DNA of 64,000 bases, from assembly GCF_001705235.1 (NCBI RefSeq), contig NZ_MCGV01000001.1:1054001-1118000 (forward strand), read 5' to 3'. Positions 36,286-41,484 of the stretch are shown here, in pieces (within the stretch, counting starts at the first letter, position 1; the number at the start of each line of letters is the position of its first letter). The notes beneath the pieces are model-generated. The model did not search any database. It saw nothing but the letters and a program-made list of their open reading frames with translations, and was not told the DNA's origin. Source of the stretch: Clostridium pasteurianum (GTDB taxonomy: Bacteria; Bacillota; Clostridia; Clostridiales; Clostridiaceae). The position numbers were made by a program, and so were the translations under genes.

Positions 36286-37104
36286 CTAATCACTAAGTCC
36301 ATGCTGCAAAAATATTTCTTCAAGCCTTTCCTGCGACATAGGCTTTGGAATTACAAAATTCTTATTTTCATCTATAGTTTTTGCAAGAGATCTATACTCA
36401 TTTGCTTGATTTGAATCTGGATGAAACTGAATTACCGTTTTCTTATTTATTTCCGCCCTTTGAACTTCATTATCCCTTGGCACAAAATATGTAAGCTGTG
36501 TCCCAAGTTCTTTAGCAAAAGCCTCTAAAAGTTCCCTTTCATTATCTACTTTTCTGCTGTTACAAATTATTCCACCAAGTCTTACTCCACCTTTATTAGC
36601 ATATCTTTTTATACCCTTCGATATATTATTTGCTGCATAAAGTGCCATCATTTCACCACTGGCAACTATATATATCTCCTTTGCCTTTCCCTCACGTATT
36701 GGCATAGCAAACCCTCCGCAGACAACATCTCCTAATACATCATAAAAAACATAATCAAGATCCTCTGTATATGCTCCAAGTCTTTCAAGCATGTTTATTG
36801 ACGTGATTATTCCTCTACCTGCACATCCTACTCCTGGCTCTGGCCCACCTGATTCAACACATTTTATATCATTGAAACCTTTTTTCATTATATAATTTAA
36901 ATCAATGTCTTCTCCTTCTGTTCTAAGTGTATCCAGAACTGTTCTCTGAGCAAGTCCCCCTAAAAGTAATCTTGTTGAATCCGCCTTAGGATCACATCCA
37001 ACTACCATTACCTTTTTACCTATTTCTGATAAACCTGCTGTTAAATTTTGTGTTGTTGTGGATTTTCCTATTCCGCCTTTACCGTAAATTGCTATTTGCC
37101 TCAT
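36286..37104 (-). CDS. marH: Nitrogenase-like reductase component (NifH homologue)
   Basis: A 272-residue homodimeric iron-sulfur ATPase that passes electrons to the partner DK component. The P-loop is [11 protein letters not shown] at residues 8-18. The Cys residues bridging the 4Fe-4S cluster are visible at 94 (GVGCAGRG) and 129 (GDVVCGGF), close to the nitrogenase positions, and the Arg that is ADP-ribosylated in some NifH is kept. ATG 37104 follows GGGAGGAAATAAAA; a longer reading from 37134 lacks a site. It is the last gene of a B-D-K-H operon. Taken alone it could be called nifH; partners and context argue for methylthio-alkane reductase. Confidence 0.85.
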
Positions 37105-37175
37105 TTTTATTTCCTCCCAAATTAACATAATCATCTTTCATTAATGCCATAATTTTTTCATCAACATTTTTTAAC

Positions 37176-38522
37176 TTAAGCACTGGCACTGACTATAACT
37201 GAGTATATCTTTTCAAGCAAAGTAAGTGCTCCTCTATATCCCACATAAGATTTTGACAAAACCACTTCATATGATGCCGGAAATCCAATTTCCACTATAG
37301 AACCTTTAAGCTCTTTAGCTATATCTCTTTCCCACGTAGTTCCAAAAATAATAGGCGGCTTGCGCCCAAAATCGGTTTTTCTTATTTTTTCATGAATAAC
37401 ATAACTGTCCTCTTCAAAATCCACATCTAGTAAGACATCATCTGCTATGTTCTTAAATTCTTCTCTGATACTATCTCTATATTTCTCCGGTGGATTTTCT
37501 GTAATAATTGCCTTAGCTGGTATAAGCCCCAATTGATTTACTAAAAACTTTGTAACTGCTAGATTATATGCACTGTCACCTACAATAGCAAACTTAGATG
37601 GAAGTCCCCACCAATACTCTGAATAAAAATCAGAAAAATCTTCTAGATATTCATAGTATCTTTTTTCCTCACTTTTAATAAATCCCTCTGCCTTTTCTCT
37701 GTCAATATGTGCAAACTCCACTACTTTTCTTAAAAAATCACTTGTTTCCTTTGCTCCTATTGGAATGGTAGAAATATGCAAATAAGGCTGATCATACTTT
37801 CCTTTTAGATGCTCTGCTGTTTTAAGTCCAAGCCATGGTGACAATACTAAATTGAATTCTGCTTTGGGAATATCCTTCCACTCGTGAACTCCTTTACTTT
37901 CATGACCAAACAGTATGTTAACTTTAAGTCCTATGCCTTCAAGTATTCTCTTTATTTCATTAAGGTCTCCTCTCCAAAAAGTATTAAAATATGGTAGAAG
38001 TGCCCACACGTTTACAAGACCTTTTTCTTTTGGTCCATCGTAATCACCTACATATTGATCTATAATAGCTTGGGCTACAAGTTCATGGCCTATAAAATTA
38101 TTTCCCTTAAATCCACCTGTTTCTGCACACACAATAGGAAGTCCATTTTCACGAAATTCACTTACTACAGATTCTGCATCATCCCCTATAGTATCTGGAA
38201 TACACCCTGTCATAACAACAAATAAATCTGCATCCATTACCTTAAAAGTACCTTCAATTAGCTCTCTTAATCTGTTTTCACCTCCAAATACAACTTCCTT
38301 TTCATGTATATTTGTGCATGGAACAGCAGATGCTCCGCCGTAGCCGCCACCTTGAAACCCATTATAAAATGCTATATTGCCGGTTTGTTTATCAACACAT
38401 CCAGGTCCACAGTGAGCTATGGGAATTACTCTTGGTATTGCAAAAGCACTGTGCATTGCTCCAATAGCGCAGCCGTACCTTACCTGCTCAATTGAATTTG
38501 ATTTTTCTTTTATATCTGACAT
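37176..38522 (-). CDS. marK: Nitrogenase-like catalytic component, beta subunit (NifK homologue)
   Basis: A 448-residue subunit that should form a heterotetramer with the marD product. Three P-cluster Cys equivalents are visible at 18 (RYGCAIGAMHSA), 42 (HCGPGCV) and 107 (TGCIPDTIGDD). It lacks the long N-terminal extension of molybdenum NifK and is about as long as the alternative-nitrogenase beta subunits. It is separated from marD by a 218-base gap with a structured GC-rich repeat, which may lower its expression. No nifE or nifN scaffold genes accompany it. Confidence 0.82.
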   Translation of the reverse strand: MSDIKEKSNSIEQVRYGCAIGAMHSAFAIPRVIPIAHCGPGCVDKQTGNIAFYNGFQGGGYGGASAVPCTNIHEKEVVFGGENRLRELIEGTFKVMDADLFVVMTGCIPDTIGDDAESVVSEFRENGLPIVCAETGGFKGNNFIGHELVAQAIIDQYVGDYDGPKEKGLVNVWALLPYFNTFWRGDLNEIKRILEGIGLKVNILFGHESKGVHEWKDIPKAEFNLVLSPWLGLKTAEHLKGKYDQPYLHISTIPIGAKETSDFLRKVVEFAHIDREKAEGFIKSEEKRYYEYLEDFSDFYSEYWWGLPSKFAIVGDSAYNLAVTKFLVNQLGLIPAKAIITENPPEKYRDSIREEFKNIADDVLLDVDFEEDSYVIHEKIRKTDFGRKPPIIFGTTWERDIAKELKGSIVEIGFPASYEVVLSKSYVGYRGALTLLEKIYSVIVSASA

Positions 38523-40231: not shown

Positions 40232-40242
40232 TTCACATCCTC

Positions 40243-41484
40243 CTAAATATTTTCATTTTCCATTGTTTTAGCTGCAGCTTCTATTCCCTTCTCTATTGTA
40301 CTAAATGTTTGAAAGAGTTTTATTCCATTTTCATTTAATATACTGGTTGGCTCAAAACCAGCTCTTATTGCAAGGACTGCACTGCAATCTTTTATTAAAT
40401 TTATAATACTTGCTATTCTGTCATCATGATTGCCACATTCACTTGGGTCAAAGCAGGACTTCACAGCATTTCTCTTCTCAATAAATTGGCTTTCACCATT
40501 TTGGTAATCATAAATATAAAACTGCGATGCATGGCCAAAATGTTCATCTACCATTTCACCTGAGCTGCTTGCAACTGCAAATCTGTAACTTATTTTTTTA
40601 ATATCCTTATTTCTTATCTCATTTAGATCAAACTTCCTAGATATATCATTATCCAGTGTTCCTATTGCATCTGCTCTGCATTGTTTGCAGTGATACATCT
40701 GTTTCAAATACTGGTTACAATTTTTTCTCATACTATTTAGTTCTATATCATTAACAGTAGATCTGTCCTGAAATACACTTCCTTTTACAGGTATAAGAGG
40801 CATAATATTAGTCATATATGCACCACATTCCTTTACCTTTTTAACTATTTCAGGTACATGCTCATCATTAATACCTTTTATCATAACTATATTTATTTTT
40901 GATATAATTCCTCTTTCAGTAACATATCTAAGCCCTGAAAGCTGATTGTGCAATAAAATTTCCCCTGCTTCTTTCCCCTTAAAGGTCTGTCCTAGATAAT
41001 TTACAAACTTATAAATCTTAGCACTTATTTTAGGATCTACCGCATTTATTGTTATAGTTATATGGCTAACTCCAAGGTTTATTAATTCATTTGCATAAAA
41101 AGGAAGCATTAATCCATTAGTTGAAATACAAAATGTCATGTTAGGCGATTCTTTTTTTATTAATTCAATGGATTTTTTAACCTGTTCAAAATTTGCTAGT
41201 GGATCTCCTGGTCCTGCTATTCCAATTACCGTTAAATTTTTTACTTTGTCTTTTACTATTTTAAATTTTTCTACTGCAAGTTCAGGAGATAAAACTTCAC
41301 TTGTCACTCCAGGTCTTGTTTCATTTACACAGTCATATTTTCTGTTGCAAAAATTACAGCTTACATTACACTTTGGAGCCACTGGTATATGCATTCTCGC
41401 ATATTTATGTGCAATGCAGTTATAACATGGATGCTTAAGTGTTTTCTCAGCAATATTTTCTAACTCTTCTGTATTTGTAATCAT
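40243..41484 (-). CDS. marB: NifB-like radical SAM cofactor-biosynthesis protein with NifX domain
   Basis: A 413-residue protein. The N-terminal radical SAM domain has CxxxCxxC in APKCNVSCNFCNRKYDC, preceded by HPCYNCIAHKYARMH as in NifB. The C-terminal NifX-like domain starts near residue 300 (FAVASSSGEMVDEHFGHA). NifB makes the carbide-containing Fe-S precursor of nitrogenase cofactors, so the associated enzyme should carry an 8Fe-type cluster. ATG 41484 with GGAGAT is chosen over an upstream in-frame ATG at 41529, which falls in the terminator hairpin. It is first in the operon, 11 bases before marD. Confidence 0.85.
   Translation of the reverse strand: MITNTEELENIAEKTLKHPCYNCIAHKYARMHIPVAPKCNVSCNFCNRKYDCVNETRPGVTSEVLSPELAVEKFKIVKDKVKNLTVIGIAGPGDPLANFEQVKKSIELIKKESPNMTFCISTNGLMLPFYANELINLGVSHITITINAVDPKISAKIYKFVNYLGQTFKGKEAGEILLHNQLSGLRYVTERGIISKINIVMIKGINDEHVPEIVKKVKECGAYMTNIMPLIPVKGSVFQDRSTVNDIELNSMRKNCNQYLKQMYHCKQCRADAIGTLDNDISRKFDLNEIRNKDIKKISYRFAVASSSGEMVDEHFGHASQFYIYDYQNGESQFIEKRNAVKSCFDPSECGNHDDRIASIINLIKDCSAVLAIRAGFEPTSILNENGIKLFQTFSTIEKGIEAAAKTMENENI

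Follow-up and report, generated by a model that had tools for sequence, protein, structure and literature searches.

A predicted methylthio-alkane reductase operon in Clostridium pasteurianum and the covarying leader element ahead of it

The question raised by a 64,000-nucleotide stretch of the Clostridium pasteurianum genome (assembly GCF_001705235.1, contig NZ_MCGV01000001.1, positions 1,054,001 to 1,118,000; the whole stretch is referred to as the window) is whether its four-gene nitrogenase-like operon at positions 36286 to 41484 encodes a nitrogenase or a methylthio-alkane reductase (MAR), and how such an operon would be controlled. From its sequence, the operon is identified here as a MAR operon, and we hold with considerable confidence that its products would cleave the C-S bond of thioethers on a route to methionine, behind a leader that would allow antitermination when sulfur is limiting. 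Homology, active-site residues, a phylogenetic tree, gene context and a covarying leader are what is shown here, whereas the catalysis, the substrate, the route to methionine, and antitermination with its signal are predictions. The B-D-K-H operon described in a first-pass annotation of the window was recovered, with all four genes on the minus strand:

40243..41484, minus strand: marB, NifB-type radical S-adenosylmethionine (SAM) cluster maker with a C-terminal NifX-like domain
38741..40231, minus strand: marD, predicted catalytic subunit with the [Fe8S9C] site
38540..38735, no strand: interspersed repeat occupying the marD-marK gap
37176..38522, minus strand: marK, predicted catalytic subunit, P-cluster half
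36286..37104, minus strand: marH, NifH-type ATP-driven reductase (longest frame from 37134)

The longest frame of marB opens at a TTG (41529), and an AGGAG sits before the ATG at 41484. That the 218-bp gap between marD and marK holds a small gene or a structured control region was rejected, since it is a genome-wide interspersed repeat with 25 matches in the genome (24 besides itself), mostly partial and some of them on the second contig.

Identification of the operon was evident from comparison of D and K with all PDB chains. Thus, the best matches of D were to the MAR of Rhodospirillum rubrum (9fmg, 794 bits; 9d9u, 793 bits) with the next protein at 112 bits, and those of K were to the same structures (9d9u/9fmg, 734 bits) with the next protein at 83 bits, which are margins of approximately 680 and 650 bits, respectively; the phmmer E-values of 4e-238 (D) and 4e-220 (K) exclude a chance origin of the similarity. 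MarD and MarK, both of which match PF00148, are identical to their R. rubrum counterparts at 342 of 492 (69.5%) and 321 of 442 positions, respectively. The presence of dedicated NifB-like and NifH-like genes is as expected of a MAR operon. The NifB-type cluster maker noted in the annotation scored 445 bits against the NCBIfam nifB model TIGR01290 (cut-off 344) and contains PF04055 and PF02579 together with the motifs CxxxCxxC, HPC, ExRP, AGPG and CxxCRxDA. Similarly, MarH scored 461 bits against the NCBIfam NifH model TIGR01287 (cut-off 394), and its C94 and C129 fall in NifH-type motifs.

The residues to be expected in MarD were taken from the R. rubrum structures (PDB 9FMG, 9D9U; Lago-Maciel et al. 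2025, PMC12552129). In that enzyme, the [Fe8S9C] cluster is held by Cys270 and by His429 with its neighbor Arg428, His429 lying in a MarD-specific loop and having been overlooked earlier, and the pocket is lined by Cys73-Gln74, His194, Trp195, Phe199 and His375 (PMC12552129). By alignment, all 12 residues checked from that list are retained in window MarD, namely the P-cluster cysteines C63, C88 and C155, the cluster ligands C266 and H424 with the adjoining R423, and the pocket residues C70, Q71, H191, W192, F196 and H371. The three cysteines of MarK (C18, C42 and C107) correspond to C32, C56 and C121 of R. rubrum MarK (3/3), in agreement with the earlier assignment of three P-cluster cysteines to each subunit. 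Of the two cofactor ligands assigned at the same time, Cys266 stands and His445 does not; the latter follows the nitrogenase pattern, and the ligand indicated by the MAR structure (His429, PMC12552129) is His424 in window MarD.

A contig scan found 107 relatives, from which the best 80 loci were used. These loci, to which the window and R. rubrum were added, yielded 89 D rows, 15 of them at least 57% identical to window MarD (the MAR clade), 68 at 40–47% and 6 at 28–33%. All 12 residues were kept in 13 of the 15 MAR-clade rows; the exceptions were L018, with Lys for Arg428, and L030, which ends at a contig edge and keeps 9 of 9 visible residues. In a tree built from 63 D rows (60 taken from the loci; the window, R. 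rubrum and the organism's own NifD and NifE within the number where applicable), the 15 MAR rows, including the window and R. rubrum MarD, formed one clade supported at 100/100 and apart from NifD and NifE, with a bootstrap that was not fully settled and with a single characterised MarD on which the clade assignment rests. The phylogeny of D that had been proposed as a check thus places the window protein with MarD, outside NifD and NifE of the same genome, and together with the PDB matches and the 12 residues bears out the MAR reading of the annotation. The place of R. rubrum inside the clade had a bootstrap of only 30–33%, although a quick tree looked better, and a direction of horizontal transfer is not claimed for this reason.

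The 68 rows at 40–47% identity (L021-L088) constitute a sister set in which Arg428, Trp195, Phe199 and His375 were kept in 68 of 68 rows, His429 in 67 and Cys73 in 66. Gln74 was found in 30 of these rows and Thr in its place in 31, and the pocket residue His194 was replaced by Ile, Met or Val in every row. Members of this clade are probably [Fe8S9C] enzymes with a different substrate. In 19 of the 80 loci, sister-clade genes occur in the run mccB-mccA-B-H-D-K. Among other relatives, L020 has the order B-H-D-K, and in L012 the B gene is approximately 5.6 kb before D-K-H.

That the operon encodes a nitrogenase or a nitrogenase maturase is suggested by the P-cluster and cofactor cysteines, which are largely common to both enzymes, yet we regard this reading as having practically no chance of being correct. 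Thus, D was 504 bits under the NCBIfam cut-off for nifD and 348 bits under that for nifE, K was 326 bits under that for nifK, and both were far below the nifD, nifK, nifE and nifN cut-offs, whereas NifH, NifD, NifK and NifE from a separate nif cluster of the same genome were each above their own cut-off. Window MarD and this NifD are identical at only 112 of 455 positions, and SKHWSTGFD in the former occupies the position of SQSAGHH in the latter, so that the nitrogenase Gln191/His195 pair is replaced, as the annotation had stated for the substrate-site block. NifE and NifN, also stated there to be absent from the operon, are represented in the separate cluster by nifE and a nifN-nifB fusion. 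The cut-off scores, the replaced Gln/His pair, the D tree and the organism's own nif proteins led us to reject the nitrogenase reading, and R. rubrum MAR does not reduce 15N2 (PMC12552129). A second alternative, that the MAR fold and clusters serve some other organosulfur or methylselenium compound as the physiological substrate rather than dimethyl sulfide, ethyl methyl sulfide or methylthioethanol, is improbable to our minds but has more in its favor. Sequence does not reveal substrate, and pockets do diverge, since the sister clade keeps the cluster ligands and swaps the pocket His throughout. Furthermore, mtnK and mtnA had no match in the genome at E ≤ 0.001 in searches for which controls were positive in 2 and 9 of 14 genomes, and the methylthioethanol salvage route of R. 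rubrum is thus not supported, which, with a literature search that found no activity data for a clostridial MAR (most subscription papers being outside its coverage), counts against the proposal as a whole. In favor of a MAR with small methyl thioethers as substrates, every checked pocket residue of R. rubrum MAR, including those at His191, Trp192, Phe196 and His371, is identical in window MarD.

The genome (4.68 Mb, 2 contigs) contains ten PF00148 matches, which belong to the nif cluster, the mar operon and two further nitrogenase-like sets. Because of this separate nif cluster and these further sets, marB and marH are extra copies kept for MAR. NifN and NifB of the nif cluster are a single 888-amino-acid fusion (G000:C1:1973677-1976343; L111:3678-6344). 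One further set consists of a NifH-like and two NifE-like genes (G000:C1:2100135-2103241; L108:5136-8242) followed by frames named by eye as hypF-, hypD- and hypE-like. The other, a NifH-like and two nitrogenase-like genes on the 191-kb contig (G000:C2:20361-23598; L109:6362-9599), is flanked by two frames of approximately 300 amino acids that are near-identical in the residues compared.

Sequences from Firmicutes are said to have been present in a tree published by North in 2020. MAR itself is known, and the present operon is a clostridial member of this kind, well supported by the sequence criteria given above and differing in gene order. It shares with R. rubrum MarBHDK the four genes, the cluster ligands, the checked pocket, the P-cluster cysteines and the dedicated NifB and NifH homologues (PMC12552129, which cites North et al. 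2020), and differs in having the order B-D-K-H instead of B-H-D-K (an order that is not defining), a repeat between D and K, an attenuator leader (the R. rubrum leader being outside the comparison) and a genome in which mtnK and mtnA were not found. Heliobacterial NflDK5, a homologue from Bacillota, has been proposed as MarDK (PMC9147875); the D protein of a Heliophilum locus (L027), which is not established as NflDK5, was approximately 45% identical to window MarD, fell in the sister clade and had Val for the pocket His. MarHDK-like genes have also been suggested in anaerobes including clostridia, where those of group IV-A, a separate group in the naming of that study, occur near type I mlp clusters and are likewise tied to sulfur genes, the genome from which the study set out being that of C. 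ljungdahlii (PMC10418091). By these results, clostridia, relatives of C. ljungdahlii and C. drakei among them, possess a MAR that retains all checked active-site residues of the characterised enzyme. Ethylene, methane and ethane may thus be released from methyl-sulfur compounds under anoxic conditions more commonly than the known phototrophs would indicate. As these two species are gas-fermenting acetogens, an oxygen-independent ethylene enzyme may already exist in industrial hosts.

The novel part of the system is the leader of the operon, for which the mode of action given below is a proposal. The relevant features are:

41651..41679, minus strand: promoter-like TTGACA-17-TATATT ahead of the leader (11 of 12 consensus bases)
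41550..41586, minus strand: leader element of approximately 37 nt, found by comparison of leaders; 38.1 bits with covariance model R1 (own sequence in the seed)
41532..41562, minus strand: intrinsic terminator from a terminator scan (hairpin -20.2 kcal/mol, z -6.2)

A common element, not mentioned in the first-pass annotation, was noted by eye, before any model was built, in 10 of 11 regions compared upstream of marB or marD, the shared pattern being UGA, a 4-bp hairpin with a short loop, AG and then a terminator. In the window, helix P1 pairs 41582-41577 with 41559-41554 and helix P2 pairs 41573-41570 with 41565-41562, with a UGA/AG internal loop between them and an AAAA loop at the tip. The 3' arm of P1 lies inside the 5' arm of the terminator, so the proposed antiterminator and the terminator are mutually exclusive.

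In the loci, this pattern matched 163 times, with a terminator in 63 cases, from which 48 were kept by eye, near-duplicates and chance-like hits being left out. Because P2 was required by this first search, its count in the resulting alignment would be circular; thus, only P1, which was not required, was counted there, and P2 was counted from a sequence-only model. Pairs 1–3 of P1 formed in 48, 45 and 36 of the 48 rows with differing base pairs, and the structure had 84.8% paired cells and a covariation of 0.68 compared with 66.6% and 0.34 in shuffles, a signal that was lost on sliding. The structure also covaried among the 91 matches of the sequence-only model. In 35 distinct non-seed rows, 26 of which come from loci that the structure model had brought in, the first three pairs of P1 formed in 35/35, 32/34 and 31/34 rows and the four pairs of P2 in 35/35, 35/35, 34/35 and 34/35. 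A terminator-like hairpin followed 23 of these 35 rows, compared with 72 of 1500 places chosen at random and 84 of 800 that were AT-rich. Rfam 15 gave no match to the element at E ≤ 5 in window positions 30000-43300; in five relative loci at E ≤ 2 the only overlap was a chance-level mir-310 on the opposite strand of L018 (E 1.7), and 23 further sources, two of them shared with the five-locus scan, gave no element match at the gathering score. A literature search, with most subscription papers outside its coverage, found no description of the element, which may be new.

The distribution of the element was in keeping with a link to MAR. Of the 14 close MAR loci (window, L009-L020, L030), 12 have it ahead of a mar gene; in the other two, L010 and L011, the contig starts within approximately 110 bp of marH and the leader lies outside the visible sequence. 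Model searches gave 84 hits at E ≤ 1, and, by the rule used, the gene following each of the best 69 was D in 22 cases, B in 12, H in 3, K in 1, a pyridoxal phosphate (PLP) enzyme or CysK-like gene in 10 and unlabelled in 21. Among 20 of these 21 that were scanned against families, ten were picked by eye as transporters, with matches to amino acid permeases, sulfonate/taurine-, methionine- and cystine-type ATP-binding cassette (ABC) parts and a YeiH-type transporter, nearly all of them below curated cut-offs, so that the cargo types are tentative. The other ten were two NifX-like genes, two ABC ATPases and six without an evident sulfur link. Hits in other genomes had 28 downstream frames, 14 of which matched query proteins from the window (one at 24% only), and ten more that were scanned were generic ABC ATPases (three), an ABC permease, solute-binding proteins (three), MoeA, a ROK protein and one that matched no family. 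These results make the link of the element to mar/nfl and Cys/Met genes firm and its link to transport likely.

Co-occurrence was also noted in a family sample of 146 genomes (hit, E ≤ 0.02; strong hit, E ≤ 1e-4; MarD-like, E ≤ 1e-60), 40 of which had a hit. Of the 26 with a strong hit, 23 had a MarD-like gene; the other 14 of the 40 genomes were without one, and their hits were chance-like. In Fisher tests that ignore relatedness, the counts for both, element only, MarD-like only and neither were 23, 3, 4 and 116 for strong hits (1e-19), 9, 1, 1 and 35 at genus level (9e-8) and 23, 17, 4 and 102 with all 40 hits (2e-12). Of 22 sampled family genomes whose MarD was close (at least 56%), 21 carried a strong element. 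In four of the sampled genomes (G019, G032, G067 and G138), at least 10 MarD-like matches were seen per genome, and elements numbered 36 in G032, 37 in G067 and 21 in G138, these genomes being unusually rich in nitrogenase-like enzymes. In the genome of the window, the mar leader was the only convincing copy, and the mar operon appears to be the single target of the element; two weaker model matches, one in a frame that is rodA-like by eye (23.4 bits) and one in a frame of 296 amino acids (18.8 bits), were set aside as chance.

A connection with sulfur came from relatives in which a SAM riboswitch is upstream of the element, before marD in L009, before marB in L020 (C. ljungdahlii) and before mar-like D genes in L021 and L038. 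The riboswitch is followed by the element within approximately 40–290 nt at L009:7733-7922, L020:5100-5520, L021:4130-4343 and L038:7654-7889, and two copies of the element stand behind the riboswitch in L020. Because of these riboswitches, we infer that the element answers to sulfur limitation, for which it would be an antiterminator. Thus, transcription would start ahead of marB and by default end at the leader terminator, while under sulfur limitation the hairpin element overlapping the terminator would be stabilised by some factor and RNA polymerase would pass. Somewhat better than even, in our judgment, are the chances of the broader proposal that the element represents a new antiterminator class which, in Clostridia, Negativicutes and heliobacteria, would detect a shortage of sulfur and regulate transport and Cys/Met genes along with nitrogenase-like enzymes that cleave C-S bonds. 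It would act via a protein or small ligand, either by itself or downstream of a SAM-I riboswitch. Clostridial SAM-I and T-box attenuators exert the same terminator/antiterminator control of Cys/Met genes (PMC2940859); the mar element differs from them in that it is only approximately 37 nt, had no Rfam match in the scans and may stand behind a SAM-I riboswitch. Such an element would provide a handle on when MAR-type enzymes switch on, and may mark a sulfur-scavenging regulon that holds further uncharacterised nitrogenase-like enzymes.

Several results weigh against control by sulfur-responsive antitermination. P1 weakened outward, its pairs 4–6 forming in 29, 31 and 26 of the 48 rows and in 24/34, 19/33 and 11/32 of the non-seed rows, most of which share the origin noted above, and 12 of the 35 non-seed rows were without a terminator by the rule used. 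The terminator scan overall was near shuffle level (5 sites compared with 3.9 in shuffles), and the promoter-like site is weak because its scan gave no more sites than shuffles (48 compared with 48.7). Not every target is a sulfur gene, the six next genes without a sulfur link encoding DUF441, a metallophosphatase, a cell-wall-binding protein, DUF4418, an FtsX-type permease and a protein without a family; three genomes had a strong element without a MarD-like gene and four the reverse, and relatedness is ignored by the tests given above. The Rfam scan found neither a SAM riboswitch nor a T-box in the window leader, and most scanned mar leaders likewise lacked a SAM riboswitch; the methionine/cysteine link of the window leader thus rests on relatives. 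No binding factor emerged, and among 20 protein families present in at least 5 of 81 loci no shared neighboring regulator stood out.

Two other explanations of the leader were considered with these results in mind. The hairpin might merely terminate the upstream M20 peptidase gene and not regulate mar at all, as its position approximately 150 bp past the stop of that gene and the greater stability of the terminator (-20.2 kcal/mol) than of the antiterminator (-9.8 kcal/mol) would allow; recurrence of the element before mar-like, transport and Cys/Met genes of other genomes and covariation of the pairing upstream of the terminator make this very improbable. Less remote, though still doubtful, is that one of the known antiterminator classes (ANTAR, LoaP or BglG/LicT type) acts on the leader, in favor of which the genome holds one ANTAR and three CAT_RBD (BglG-type) matches. 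Known BglG-type sites have a different sequence from that of the mar leader. ANTAR sites consist of two small hairpins with hexaloops that have A at position 1 and G at position 4 (PMC3369931), whereas by-eye comparison indicated one nested hairpin here with a loop of 4 nt (4–5 nt in the 48 rows). Those of LoaP are UNCG hairpins (PMC12691694), whereas the loop here is AAAA, and the genome has a single NusG-family match. On these loop and hairpin features and the single NusG-family match, ANTAR and LoaP were judged unlikely readers of the leader.

The T-box and S-box sulfur operons described in the annotation were located beside the mar operon by Rfam and family searches:

35507..35753, minus strand: T-box leader (RF00230, 99.1 bits) before ubiG-mccB-mccA; specifier UGC (Cys), by eye from the alignment
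34762..35394, minus strand: methyltransferase (PF08241), which we take to be ubiG/yrrT-like by synteny
33599..34747, minus strand: mccB-like cystathionine gamma-lyase/homocysteine desulfhydrase (NF005810, 595.3 bits, cut-off 594)
32691..33602, minus strand: mccA (CysK-like), an open reading frame named from its mccB neighbor and by eye
32479..32580, minus strand: SAM riboswitch (RF00162, 89.5 bits) preceding the gene pair 32456-30120
30120..32456, minus strand: two metI/metC-like transsulfuration enzymes (NCBIfam cystathionine beta-lyase/gamma-lyase-type matches, all shown under cut-off)

A T-box with a TGC specifier has been described on clostridial ubiG operons (PMC2940859). Elsewhere in the genome, an O-acetylhomoserine sulfhydrylase, MetY (C1:3325739; 669.9 bits, cut-off 495.1), has a SAM riboswitch (L110:4496-4602) that ends 138 bp before the family match. 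With these genes, a route can be proposed, each metabolic step of which is conditional. MarB would build the [Fe8S9C] cluster, MarDK would hold it via Cys266 and His424 together with the P-cluster, and MarH would supply electrons with ATP. Small methyl thioethers, for example dimethyl sulfide, ethyl methyl sulfide or methylthioethanol, would be split reductively by the enzyme at the C-S bond to yield methanethiol and a hydrocarbon. Since mtnK and mtnA were not found, the thioether is probably taken up from outside, supply from the cell's own methylthioadenosine not being supported by the gene content. MetY would then turn methanethiol into methionine, and the products of ubiG-mccB-mccA would move methionine sulfur to cysteine. 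On the other side of the mar operon, window positions 45359-49881 contain a cystine/glutamine-type amino acid ABC transporter beside a methionine gamma-lyase-like PLP enzyme (matches under cut-off), a further sulfur amino acid set.

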